DNA of 64,000 nt from Prochlorococcus sp. MIT 0603 (GTDB lineage: Bacteria > Cyanobacteriota > Cyanobacteriia > PCC-6307 > Cyanobiaceae), in the NCBI RefSeq assembly GCF_000760215.1, contig NZ_JNAW01000002.1, positions 1 to 64,000 of the forward strand, read 5' to 3'. Below are positions 11,303 through 14,158 of this stretch, in pieces; positions within the stretch are counted from its first letter, which is position 1; each line of letters opens with the position of its first letter. The translations under genes and the position numbers were made by a program. The notes under the pieces are model-generated. The model was not told the DNA's origin. It saw only the letters and a program-made list of their open reading frames with translations, and searched no databases.

Positions 11303-12031
11303 ATGATAGAGACCTTTAAAAATAAATCAGCTGCCAGATATTTATTTGGAGCAGGCTTGATATTATTATTGATTTTCACTAATAAAGTATTTGATATTAA
11401 TCAGATCAACAATCTAATTTTAAATACTCAAGAGAGTATAGGAAGAATAAGTTTTTTAGCAGCATTTTTGATCTTCTTATTGAGGTCTTTGAGTATCCTT
11501 ATTCCAATTCTTCCAGGTACTTATTGCTCTGTCATAGCAGGATATTTATATGGCTTTGAAATTGGCTTGTTACTTATTTTTGTTGCAGACCTTATTTCTT
11601 GCTCCTGTTCGTTTTTCCTTGCAAGAAGCTTAGGTAGAGGATTTGTGAGAAAGATATTAGGTTTTAGACAAATGCAAAAAGTAGAGAGCTTTAGTAGCAA
11701 ATATCTTGAAGGTAATTTCTTTTTAATGACAGGTTGCTTAATGACTCAATTCTTTGATTTTGTTTGCTATGCAGTTGGCCTAACTAAGGTTCCTTGGAGA
11801 AAATTCATGCCTGCATTAGTCTTAAGTATAATAATTTCAGATGCTCCATTTGTTGCAGGTGGATATACATTAAAAGGACTGAATAGCCTAAAGGAAATTT
11901 TAAATGGTCAAGTTCAGGTTCTTAATGGGAACTATTTACTGGTATTTATAGCTTGTGTTATTTCAATATTTGGATTGGGATTCTTAAATATTTTCATTAA
12001 TAAAGCGACTAGATCTAAACGTCTTAGATAA
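11303..12031 (+). CDS. TVP38/TMEM64 (DedA-like, VTT domain) membrane protein
   Basis: A 242-aa integral membrane protein with about five to six hydrophobic spans. The VTT/SNARE-associated domain is recognised by RSLSILIPILPGTYCSVIAGY near 62-82, with the FFLARSLGRGFVRKILG segment following. Proteins of this superfamily are linked to lipid scrambling or flipping and to membrane homeostasis. The precise role here is inferred from the family only. It stands alone on the plus strand, next to the minus-strand mini-gene cluster whose last gene, a rubredoxin, ends 57 nt away. Confidence 0.88.
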   Translation: MIETFKNKSAARYLFGAGLILLLIFTNKVFDINQINNLILNTQESIGRISFLAAFLIFLLRSLSILIPILPGTYCSVIAGYLYGFEIGLLLIFVADLISCSCSFFLARSLGRGFVRKILGFRQMQKVESFSSKYLEGNFFLMTGCLMTQFFDFVCYAVGLTKVPWRKFMPALVLSIIISDAPFVAGGYTLKGLNSLKEILNGQVQVLNGNYLLVFIACVISIFGLGFLNIFINKATRSKRLR

Positions 12032-12088: not shown

Positions 12089-12271
12089 TTAACAATCTTT
12101 AGCTTTAAATCTAAATTTTCTTGCCTTGCAAATTGGGCATACCCAACTATCAGGCAGCTTTTCAAAAGGAGTACCTGCTGGTATTGCTTGTGATGGGTCT
12201 CCACGATCAGGCTTGTATGTATATATACAATCTCTGCATTGGTAATTTGATTTATCTAAGCCAATATTCAT
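12089..12271 (-). CDS. Soluble rubredoxin
   Basis: A 60-aa rubredoxin binding a single Fe with four Cys. Two knuckles are visible: CRDC at 13-16 and CPIC at 45-48, with the usual YKPDRGDP and GTPFEKLPDSWVCP segments. Unlike the cyanobacterial RubA encoded beside psbEFLJ, it has no C-terminal membrane anchor. RubA is known to be needed for photosystem assembly. It is the last gene of a minus-strand run that includes PsbF-like and PsbN-like proteins, which suggests, but does not prove, a photosystem-related electron carrier. 97 nt separate it from the preceding 57-aa gene. Confidence 0.93.
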   Translation of the reverse strand: MNIGLDKSNYQCRDCIYTYKPDRGDPSQAIPAGTPFEKLPDSWVCPICKARKFRFKAKDC

Positions 12272-12368
12272 AATATTTGTTCTCTTTTCTTAAAGATCGC
12301 AGATAATGACCTTTAATGCAATTAAATTGACAATTTCAAAATCAAATAATCTCCTTCTCAAGATTAAA

Positions 12369-12542
12369 CTAGTTTCTGGCGAAAGCGCTATTATTTATAC
12401 TTAAAAATACTATTAGCCATGTGAATCCTAGTATAAATGCAGTGCTTAGAATTAAAATAAATGAGATAATATTAATATCTACATTTAGAAAATCAGACGC
12501 TTCTGTTATTTGATTTAAATATGATGAATTTAAAAAATTCAT
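12369..12542 (-). CDS. Small single-span membrane protein (57 aa)
   Basis: A 57-codon frame starting with ATG 2 nt after the stop of the PsbN-like gene, which indicates translational coupling. The product has a polar N-terminus (MNFLNSSYLNQITEAS) and one long hydrophobic span at about 25-48 (IISFILILSTAFILGFTWLI), then ends NNSAFARN. I do not recognise a family; size and topology match low-mass photosystem subunits in general. It is supported by the tight spacing and by its place between two better-recognised genes. Confidence 0.6.
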   Translation of the reverse strand: MNFLNSSYLNQITEASDFLNVDINIISFILILSTAFILGFTWLIVFLSINNSAFARN

Positions 12543-12544
12543 TT

Positions 12545-12733
12545 TTATTTGTCGCCATGGGTATGAGCAATTCCCAGTTCATGCATTCGAGCATGCTCAT
12601 CTATTGAATCTGTAAGTCTATGTGCTCCAGAACCAAAAGAGTTATACATTCCATAAGCTACTGAGCCAAATAGCATAGTAAGGATTACTCCTATTAAAAT
12701 GTAAGGTGATGGATTTGTAGACGAGATTTCCAT
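12545..12733 (-). CDS. PsbN-like small membrane protein
   Basis: A 62-aa protein with one span at about 10-30 followed by a hydrophilic tail. The pattern FGSVAYGMYNSFG...L.D..DEH (22-47) resembles PsbN, whose consensus has TGyavYtaFG..... LrDPFDDHED. PsbN is required for photosystem II assembly and repair. Here the DPFDDHE core is degenerate (TDSIDEH) and a His-rich extension, HELGIAHTHGDK, is added, so this would be a diverged paralogue rather than the canonical gene, which normally lies near psbH. Assignment rests on pattern similarity only. Confidence 0.6.
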   Translation of the reverse strand: MEISSTNPSPYILIGVILTMLFGSVAYGMYNSFGSGAHRLTDSIDEHARMHELGIAHTHGDK

Positions 12734-12893
12734 GAATTAATTTTATTGATTATTCGTTTATTATCCTATTGATTTCAAAATAAATAAACCTCATGTTTAT
12801 CAATCTGGCCAATAATATACTTCATTTTTAAGTGCTATTATTTTCTGATTAATGTTGCAATTTTTATATTAACTGCTTGACTATATAAGTAAT

Positions 12894-12989
12894 TTATGAG
12901 TAAAGCAAAACACCTGTTAACTCTATTGATATCCATAAACAGGCTGTAATGGATATCATCAAGAATATTATTTGATCGGAACTTGCCAT
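12894..12989 (-). CDS. Tiny single-span membrane protein (31 aa)
   Basis: A 31-codon ATG frame starting 17 nt after the PsbF-like gene. It begins MASSDQIIFLMISITACLW and ends in LTGVLLYS, so it is almost wholly a transmembrane helix. Length and the start pattern (short polar MxxSDxQ, then a helix ending LY) recall PsaM of photosystem I, but the identity is too low to assert it. It is too short for confidence on its own; its position inside the cluster is the main support. Confidence 0.45.
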   Translation of the reverse strand: MASSDQIIFLMISITACLWISIELTGVLLYS

Positions 12990-13006
12990 GGTAATTGTTT
13001 AATTAG

Positions 13007-13315
13007 CTACGCACTAATCAGACCTCTCCTTATAAATTGCATTGCAAATATTGCTCCAAGGAAAAACACTGTTGGGATGCCTAAGGCATTGACTGCAAGA
13101 GTCCTAACCGTAAATACTGGGTATCCTCCTTTAGGCCTATTGTCAGGAATTATGCCGCTATCCTCCCAATCCTGATAGTTCTCTAAAGATGGTACGCCTG
13201 GTAACGTTTCATTATTCCATTTAAAAACACCCCAATATGAAAGCCAAAAGATTGTTGATGCAGCAGCTATGAAAACAGGAGCTAATACAATTAATGTTTT
13301 AAGAACCATCGCCAA
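13007..13315 (-). CDS. PsbF-like protein (cytochrome b559 beta homologue) with extra N-terminal span, haem His missing
   Basis: A 102-aa protein. The C-terminal part (65-97) is a near copy of cytochrome b559 beta: [19 protein letters not shown] and then [14 protein letters not shown]. Canonical PsbF reads YPIFTVRWLAVHTLGVPTV. The haem-ligand His is replaced by Asn76 (codon AAT) and the preceding Trp by Thr. The N-terminal part has an additional hydrophobic span (3-30, including [11 protein letters not shown]) and an acidic linker (35-60). PsbF is normally about 45 aa and lies in psbEFLJ; neither holds here. It cannot form a b559 haem site in the usual way, so it is probably a paralogue with an assembly or regulatory role (inference). 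Confidence 0.8.
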
Positions 13316-13594: not shown

Positions 13595-13840
13595 TTAGTC
13601 AGTATTGCATATTAAAAAATCTTCTATTTCCTTAGATATATCGTCATTAATTAAATCTATATTTGCACTTAACATCGACCCGTAAATATCGAGCTTCTTT
13701 TTCTTTACTTGTCCATAGGACTGGGAGTTTATTTGTAAGTTTAACTCCTTGGAATTAGCGAAAAAAGAGTATTCATAACCTGCAAATACGTGAACATCTG
13801 CTTCTTTCGAATTAATGCTTGCCAGCCTTTGCCGCTCCTT
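13595..13840 (-). pseudogene. Open frame without a start codon (possible gene remnant)
   Basis: An 81-codon frame on the minus strand between an in-frame TAG (13841-13843) and the stop at 13595-13597. It has no ATG, GTG or TTG before Met55. The translation looks protein-like (SKEADVHVFAGYEYSFFANS near 11-30, then DDISKEIEDFLICNTD at the end) but matches nothing I know. It overlaps the integrase remnant in another frame. A decayed or frameshifted gene is the likeliest reading. Confidence 0.3.
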
Positions 13841-13854
13841 CTAATGGTTGCCAT
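13741..13854 (-). pseudogene. Tyrosine recombinase (integrase) N-terminal remnant
   Basis: A 37-codon frame beginning MATIRRSGKGWQALIRKK, a typical start of phage/island tyrosine recombinases, whose arm-binding N-terminal domain commonly begins M-A-[ST]-I-R-[KR]-x-G-K-x-W-Q-A. It runs into a stop after 37 residues with no catalytic domain, so it is a truncated remnant. It lies about 140 nt from the 3' end of tRNA-Thr, the usual place of an integrase after tRNA-targeted insertion. This suggests an old integration site. Confidence 0.55.
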
Positions 13855-13938: not shown

Positions 13939-13994
13939 GATATCAAGAACCCCTAGTGCCTGAAATAGTTTCTCTTAGAAGAGGTCTGGGCTAG

Positions 13995-14066
<72 letters not shown>

Positions 14067-14076
14067 TTGTGGAAGG

Positions 14077-14158
14077 TGGGCCGGGTTGGATTTGAACCAA
14101 CGTAGGCAGAGCCAGCGGATTTACAGTCCGCCCCCATTAACCACTCGGGCACCGACCC
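14077..14158 (-). tRNA. trnY: tRNA-Tyr (anticodon GTA)
   Basis: An 82-nt class II tRNA with a long variable arm. The acceptor stem GGGTCGG pairs with CCGGCCC, the anticodon loop CTGTAAA gives GTA (Tyr), and the T arm GGTTCAAATCC is present. It is the first gene of a minus-strand tRNA-Tyr/tRNA-Thr pair and is divergent from aroQ. Confidence 0.95.

Follow-up and report, generated by a model that had tools for sequence, protein, structure and literature searches.

What are five small genes doing in a row on one strand of a Prochlorococcus genome, when two of them resemble photosystem II genes that the genome also carries elsewhere? The window, by which we mean the whole stretch of 64,000 nucleotides analysed here, belongs to Prochlorococcus sp. 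MIT 0603 (contig NZ_JNAW01000002.1), and its genome (G000) measures 1.75 Mb in 7 contigs with completeness 100. The original prediction placed five small minus-strand open reading frames at 12089-13315 and took them for one photosystem module. All five were found in a row as described, the 57-aa gene does start 2 nt past the stop of the PsbN-like gene, and the PsbF-like and PsbN-like genes (psbFL and psbNL in the following) indeed are diverged relatives of photosystem II genes. The length of 102 aa given for the PsbF-like protein holds with a TTG start (13315-13007); an in-frame ATG at 13309 yields 100 aa instead, which fits the homologues. The five look like genes rather than chance open reading frames because of their profile matches, because relatives of all five are present in other genomes (found by searching 201 genomes from the GTDB family to which the window genome belongs, the 31-aa gene in the fetched psbFL loci) and because PsbFL has a low dN/dS: six of eight pairs gave 0.033-0.085, and two were saturated at synonymous sites. 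Purifying selection on PsbFL is strong. The coordinates are collected in Table 1.

Table 1. Features of the window at and around the five small genes.
Feature	Position	Strand	Basis and remarks
Membrane protein with VTT domain, second border of the putative island	11303..12031	+	VTT protein at the same site in L171
Soluble rubredoxin, 60 aa	12089..12271	-	PF00301; near psbFL in 2/30 loci
57-aa membrane protein gene, psbNL partner	12369..12542	-	9/24 psbNL loci
psbNL (PsbN relative, 62 aa, conserved tail DEHARMHELGIAHTH)	12545..12733	-	Pfam, NCBIfam, hhalign
31-aa single-helix protein gene	12894..12989	-	17 nt past psbFL; 14/30 loci
psbFL	13007..13309	-	100 aa, putative PsbY-PsbF fusion, 2 predicted membrane helices, NF002717 178.3 bits
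PsbF-like C-terminal helix region of psbFL (residues 63-95)	13025..13123	-	PF00283, TIGR01333, PsbF chains of solved structures
Asn74 codon AAT, equivalent to PsbF His24 (T. elongatus numbering), heme axial ligand	13088..13090	-	
Thr70 codon ACT, equivalent to PsbF Trp20	13100..13102	-	
PsbY-like N-terminal helix of psbFL (residues 2-25)	13235..13306	-	hhalign vs PsbY
Phage-type integrase remnant (19 residues)	13798..13854	-	Identity to start of PF00589 integrase in L171
tRNA-Thr(GGT), one border of the putative island	13994..14066	-	
tRNA-Tyr(GTA)	14075..14158	-	

The first point to settle is whether the five genes belong together. PsbFL occurs in 33 of the 201 family genomes, and 30 of these 33 loci, the window included, were compared with 1.5 kb flanks. 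The 31-aa gene lies directly behind psbFL in 14 of the 30, psbNL is nearby in three, a rubredoxin falls within 1.5 kb in two, and the full set is present in the window and in one other genome (G166). Rubredoxin-type matches are found in 190 of the 201 genomes, other rubredoxins counted in. PsbNL (E<1e-14) is found in 24 of the 201, and the 57-aa gene directly follows it in 9 of these 24 loci; the copy of the 57-aa gene in G065 carries stops. The recurring units are two pairs, psbFL with the 31-aa gene and psbNL with the 57-aa gene. A dedicated operon of all five for accessory assembly, repair or redox work, as first proposed, would agree with their common strand, with the tight spacing within both pairs (17 and 2 nt) and with the second full set in G166. 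Nonetheless, the set is complete in only 2 of 30 psbFL loci, psbFL and psbNL lie about 730 kb apart in G078, the units stand apart, with 160 nt separating the two pairs and 97 nt in front of the rubredoxin, and a promoter and terminator scan showed no excess over shuffles, promoter-like sites included. On the co-occurrence counts across the family genomes we rejected the five-gene operon, which we now consider very unlikely.

The gathering itself has another reading. The prediction had also noted a tRNA and integrase debris beside the cluster, and both are there: the tRNA-Thr/Tyr genes lie at 13994-14158, and the debris matches, with 19 of 19 residues identical, the first residues of a 327-aa phage integrase (PF00589, 93.1 bits) that occupies this site in G078 (L171). 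In G078 this site, between the VTT-domain gene and tRNA-Thr/Tyr-dehydroquinase as in the window, holds psbFL, other cargo, the integrase and two copies of tRNA-Thr. Because of this cargo and integrase at the same site, with an integrase remnant in the window, the five-gene gathering is best read as the effect of a tRNA-Thr island that collects cassettes. A phage origin of PsbFL was considered as well and rejected: a viral scan returned two weak matches, which we read as chance, both to long phage proteins with a common 11-residue string, one of them a phage capsid protein (PF05065).

Is PsbFL, then, a cytochrome b559 subunit? The window protein reaches 178.3 bits (cut-off 153) against NCBIfam NF002717, 'cytochrome b559 subunit beta, long form', and 15 of 15 PsbFL members match both NF002717 and NF002720 at E<=1. 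The general PsbF profiles are passed as well (PF00283, 36.2 bits with a cut-off of 30; TIGR01333, 63.5 with a cut-off of 61.15), and the C-terminal half aligns with the PsbF chains of solved photosystem II structures. Canonical PsbF has its helix, Arg19 and conserved core in common with PsbFL, but it is a one-helix protein of some 45 aa that has His24 and Trp20 and whose gene is flanked by psbE and psbL, whereas PsbFL has 100 aa, two helices in a low-confidence model and a different locus. Aligned to PsbF chains of PDB structures (T. elongatus numbering), Asn74 of PsbFL corresponds to His24, the heme ligand, and Thr70 to Trp20. Asn stands at the ligand position in 33 of 33 family genomes (31 aligned; G094 and G013 read by hand) and in 80 of 80 loci of the named collection, the best 80 of 243 matches. 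These two samples overlap in part, and the scan patterns behind the named-collection loci left position 24 free, with position 20 in one pattern. Thr occupies position 20 in 32 of the 33 family proteins. The window PsbFL contains no His at all, nor does the PsbF half of those best 80 of 243 loci; Arg19 is kept, and the PsbF half is almost invariant among the aligned family copies. The AlphaFold model has a mean pLDDT of 57.4, with the two helices usable alone.

The one exception at position 20 is G013, whose PsbFL combines Trp20 with Asn24 (L176 and L142; G013:C11:12283-12549) and is possibly an intermediate; psbE was not found in this genome, which is 90% complete. PsbFL also occurs beside canonical psbE and psbF in two genomes labelled Synechococcus (AG-679-A04 and AG-673-F03; L272, L274), and it is therefore not limited to genomes labelled Prochlorococcus.

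The N-terminal half points to another photosystem II subunit, PsbY. In hhalign it matched PsbY with P=8.4e-7 and a probability of 91.6, and eight controls in the same test (PsbL, PsbJ, PsbE, PsbF, PsbN, psbNL and the 31-aa and 57-aa proteins) all gave P>=0.007, so that in profile-profile comparison the likeness to PsbY stands above that to the other small membrane subunits. Residues 2-25 are helical in the low-confidence model. The NCBIfam PsbY model was reached at E<=1 by 10 of 15 PsbFL members (best E 0.0026), and the window protein stays at 11.7 bits, below the curated cut-off of 48; in none of the profile comparisons did the PsbY likeness of PsbFL rise above a curated cut-off. None of 300 column shuffles reached the observed score, but shuffling destroys hydrophobic patterning, and the eight control profiles are the better test. 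A free-standing protein in G052 scores 23.4 bits to the PsbY model and, by eye, seems to link PsbY with the N-terminus of PsbFL.

What does a cell with PsbFL do with its ordinary psbF? The window genome keeps it. As the prediction had it, canonical psbE, psbF and psbN lie elsewhere (G000:C1:291697, 291964 and 248541, respectively), with canonical psbY at C2:194983, so that PsbFL is carried in addition to a normal psbE, psbF, psbY and psbN. Other genomes differ. A six-frame DNA search with PF00283 covered 34 chosen genomes, namely 30 of the 33 PsbFL carriers and four without: 18 have PsbE, PsbF and PsbFL, four PsbE and PsbF only, four PsbFL without PsbE, and eight PsbE and PsbFL without PsbF. 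When 17 genomes were searched with canonical PsbF at E<=10, G003 and eight of the nine g56 genomes gave PsbFL and a weak PsbE match only, and the ninth (G185) gave the PsbFL match alone. Of the nine psbF-less genomes measured, eight have a psbE-psbL gap of 29 nt and one has a gap of 34 nt; in the 12 psbF-bearing genomes for which a value was obtained, the gap is 170-172 nt. A second set of 30 genomes, chosen from the 80 named loci (best 80 of 243), comprised 15 with PsbE and PsbFL only, 10 with all three and five with PsbFL without PsbE. The 15 are 13 genomes titled AG-, which we take to be single cells and which show the 29-nt junction (G196 occurs among them a second time), together with HNLC1 and HNLC2, where the gap is 104 and 109 nt. 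Since these junctions differ from 29 nt, the loss in HNLC1 and HNLC2 is probably a separate event. The losses cluster in few lineages and therefore suggest two or three events, not dozens.

One could suspect that the missing psbF is an artefact of assembly or annotation, as the gene is short and easily overlooked by annotation and many of the genomes are drafts. We give this next to no credence: the searches were run on six-frame DNA, seven psbF-less genomes are single contigs (G003, G056, G086, G110, G130, G161 and G173), and the short psbE-psbL junction was read directly in nine genomes and at 13 more loci. As for PsbY, among 130 genomes at least 90% complete, no PsbY match was found in ten, the nine g56 genomes and G026, and in G003 and G013 the sole PsbY match is the N-terminus of PsbFL itself. 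The converse idea, that PsbY is present wherever psbF is, was dropped, because G026 (99% complete), G093 (89%) and G066 (70%) keep psbF without a PsbY match. The psbF-less, g56-like Prochlorococcus presumably represent the low-light-I (LLI) ecotype. As read from these assemblies, psbF is deleted between psbE and psbL in LLI-type Prochlorococcus, no free PsbY is found, and PsbFL is the only predicted PsbF; the HNLC1 and HNLC2 assemblies are likewise without a recognisable psbF, by a different junction. The lost ligand, the PsbY likeness, the conservation and the psbF deletion with absence of PsbY are firm as facts of sequence.

Food for interpretation is how such a chain would sit in photosystem II. 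PsbY has its N-terminus in the lumen and its C-terminus in the stroma, and PsbF has its N-terminus in the stroma, a topology that fits a PsbY-PsbF fusion. The one-chain arrangement fits photosystem II also because PsbY adjoins its partners, being drawn beside PsbE and PsbF (PMC4823308, Figure 1 legend). PsbY and PsbF, neighbouring helices, would thus be carried on one PsbFL chain that occupies their place beside PsbE. PsbE and PsbF each donate one His to the b559 heme (PMC9986647). Because His24 is absent, a bis-histidine heme cannot form; a cytochrome b559 with PsbFL would have at most one His on its heme and most likely no heme, which would save one iron atom per photosystem II. Our main reading, to which we give a probability of roughly 0.7, is that PsbFL replaces PsbF and PsbY in photosystem II and leaves a cytochrome b559 without bis-histidine heme, probably as an iron-saving measure. 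In strains that have both genes, such as the window strain, PsbFL might serve as a second isoform for a particular condition, perhaps low iron or low light.

The fusion has a counterpart among solved structures. Among PDB chains, the PsbFL profile matches chain F of 7ymi best (PsbF half 52.9 bits; PsbY half 11.8 bits, which is weak). This 99-aa chain of 7ymi and 7ymm, which we take to be Acaryochloris marina photosystem II, is named Photosystem II protein Y and, like PsbFL, combines PsbF and PsbY sequence in a single polypeptide of the complex. It differs in order, with PsbF followed by PsbY where PsbFL has PsbY followed by PsbF, and in keeping His24 and Trp20 (VRWLAVH). These data bear on the possibility that PsbFL is a non-structural assembly or repair factor and that LLI PsbE works without PsbF, perhaps as a homodimer with a two-His heme. 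PsbFL is placed in photosystem II by sequence, and 18 of the 34 chosen genomes keep both psbF and psbFL, as such a factor would allow. On the other hand, the PsbF half is almost invariant, the g56 genomes keep PsbFL while being without psbF and a free PsbY match, and the top PDB match is a solved photosystem II chain with the same two halves. We find the assembly-factor explanation improbable, and PsbFL likely stands in place of PsbF inside photosystem II.

Whether a heme persists there is a finer question. PsbFL could replace PsbF while His23 of PsbE alone keeps the heme, the sixth position being taken by water or Asn or left empty; the cytochrome would then be low-potential or high-spin. This overlaps with our main reading, which allows one His, and differs in denying heme loss. 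PsbE of the psbF-less genomes, LLI type included, keeps His23, Arg8, Arg18 and Tyr19; with Arg19 of PsbFL also kept, much of the heme site therefore remains. The retained His23 and heme-propionate Arg residues of LLI PsbE and PsbFL (these Arg residues being named for b559 in PMC4709441) argue for a one-His heme, as does the Synechocystis H22K-alpha mutant, which, according to the same paper, grew with one ligand displaced (PMC4709441). Against it, positions 20 and 24 of PsbF are both changed, and T26 of PsbE is changed too in the LLI type. Nearly all ligand substitutions listed for Synechocystis in the cited part of PMC4709441 destroyed photosystem II, Asn not being among them. In T. elongatus, apo-cytochrome b559 mutants indicate that heme-free photosystem II can work: as relayed in passages of PMC4709441 and PMC9214863, H23A-alpha and H23M-alpha assembled photosystem II without b559 heme (Sugiura 2015). 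Those are laboratory mutants of PsbE, whereas PsbFL would be a natural, fixed state in PsbF. Retention of a one-His heme thus seems to us unlikely, if well worth keeping in mind, and absence of the heme somewhat likelier. The full proposal, that two Prochlorococcus lineages have a photosystem II without any b559 heme, the beta subunit of the cytochrome having given way to a fused PsbY-PsbF in a redesign that saves iron, is put forward tentatively, at a little short of an even bet.

The change in PsbE deserves its own mention. Position 26 is Ala in the LLI type (L130-L137, L156) and Thr in the other PsbE read, HNLC1 and HNLC2 included. T26A is possibly coupled to the LLI-type loss of psbF; as a general mark of psbF loss it was dropped because HNLC1 and HNLC2 keep T26. 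In G088, which is 59% complete, psbE carries the LLI-type change, and neither PsbF nor PsbFL was matched. The same position has been mutated as T26P in work on cytochrome b559, as a passage of PMC4709441 mentions.

Why would the heme be given up? Flavodoxin is encoded within 3 kb in 20 of 22 LLI-type loci (those with PsbFL ending RRGVINA), the other two ending at a contig edge, and its identity was confirmed by Pfam in one locus. No flavodoxin was found within 3 kb of PsbFL in the HNLC genomes, and a link of PsbFL to iron by way of flavodoxin is thus a feature of LLI-type loci only, not a general one. Because of flavodoxin near the LLI-type loci and the sole-copy PsbFL in assemblies named HNLC, iron saving is a reasonable motive. 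Photosystem II is credited with 3 iron atoms in the cited part of PMC10545762. As for expression, the part of an SS120 proteomics data set available to us includes PSBF_PROMA and PSBE_PROMA, but a long form is not listed (PMC5451487). In MIT9312 a PsbF-like gene, PMT9312_RS06075, which we infer to be psbFL, is transcribed and falls with other photosystem II genes under HDPE plastic leachate, according to an excerpt of PMC6517427.

The family as such already has a name. NF002717 and NF002720 describe the same family as PsbFL and are models of kind 'exception'; their name implies a heme subunit, and the description shown is silent on the missing ligand, the PsbY half and the loss of canonical psbF. 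Our searches of one collection of open-licence papers turned up no report of the missing ligand or of psbF loss in LLI or HNLC Prochlorococcus; the missing ligand, the PsbY-PsbF fusion and the status as sole PsbF were not found in print there. According to the part cited of a 2025 review, there is no consensus on the physiological redox role of the b559 heme (PMC12661325). A natural lineage without the heme ligand beside relatives that keep it would allow this role to be tested directly, with no need for laboratory mutants. Should iron sparing be the motive, a core-complex case would be added to the known iron-saving substitutions in the ocean, and if the heme-free reading is true, a core complex thought universal would have been redesigned.

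Among the remaining genes of the row, the rubredoxin is a clear one (PF00301, 72.9 bits with a cut-off of 23; two CxxC pairs, CRDC and CPIC). The RubA-type rubredoxin of photosystem II assembly has a membrane anchor and is encoded upstream of ycf48-psbE, whereas the window protein has 60 aa, no evident membrane helix and another locus. In L131 a rubredoxin frame with a hydrophobic end, judged by eye, does lie upstream of psbE. The 57-aa protein matched no Pfam family, and neither it nor the 31-aa protein matched PsbL, PsbJ, PsbN, PsbY, PsbF or PsbE by hhalign. PsbNL is a relative of the assembly factor PsbN that stays below the family cut-offs (21.5 against 25 bits in Pfam, 25 against 70 in NCBIfam); its hhalign probability of 99.7 to PsbN is inflated, as the alignment also held PsbN rows. 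It differs from PsbN by an extra conserved His/Met-rich tail, EHARMHELGIAHxH (also in L045, L051 and L041). LLI-type loci have psbNL near a His-rich membrane protein with no Pfam family over cut-off, and one further genome has it near a metal-type ABC permease (PF00950). Because of the His/Met-rich tail and these neighbours, the tail may bind metal.

Finally, psbFL has neighbours of its own. A membrane protein of 122-148 aa is encoded divergently beside it in LLI and many HL loci (L168 7835-8281; also L169, L172), and a 137-202 aa protein of the WLGGRFFAIWVLPI type is encoded downstream (L168 6756-7184; also L169, L172). The L168 copies of both matched no Pfam family, and both are possible partners of PsbFL. 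In HL-type loci a separate open reading frame like the N-terminal half of PsbFL alone lies directly after psbFL (L028 1801-1989; L308 3312-3497).
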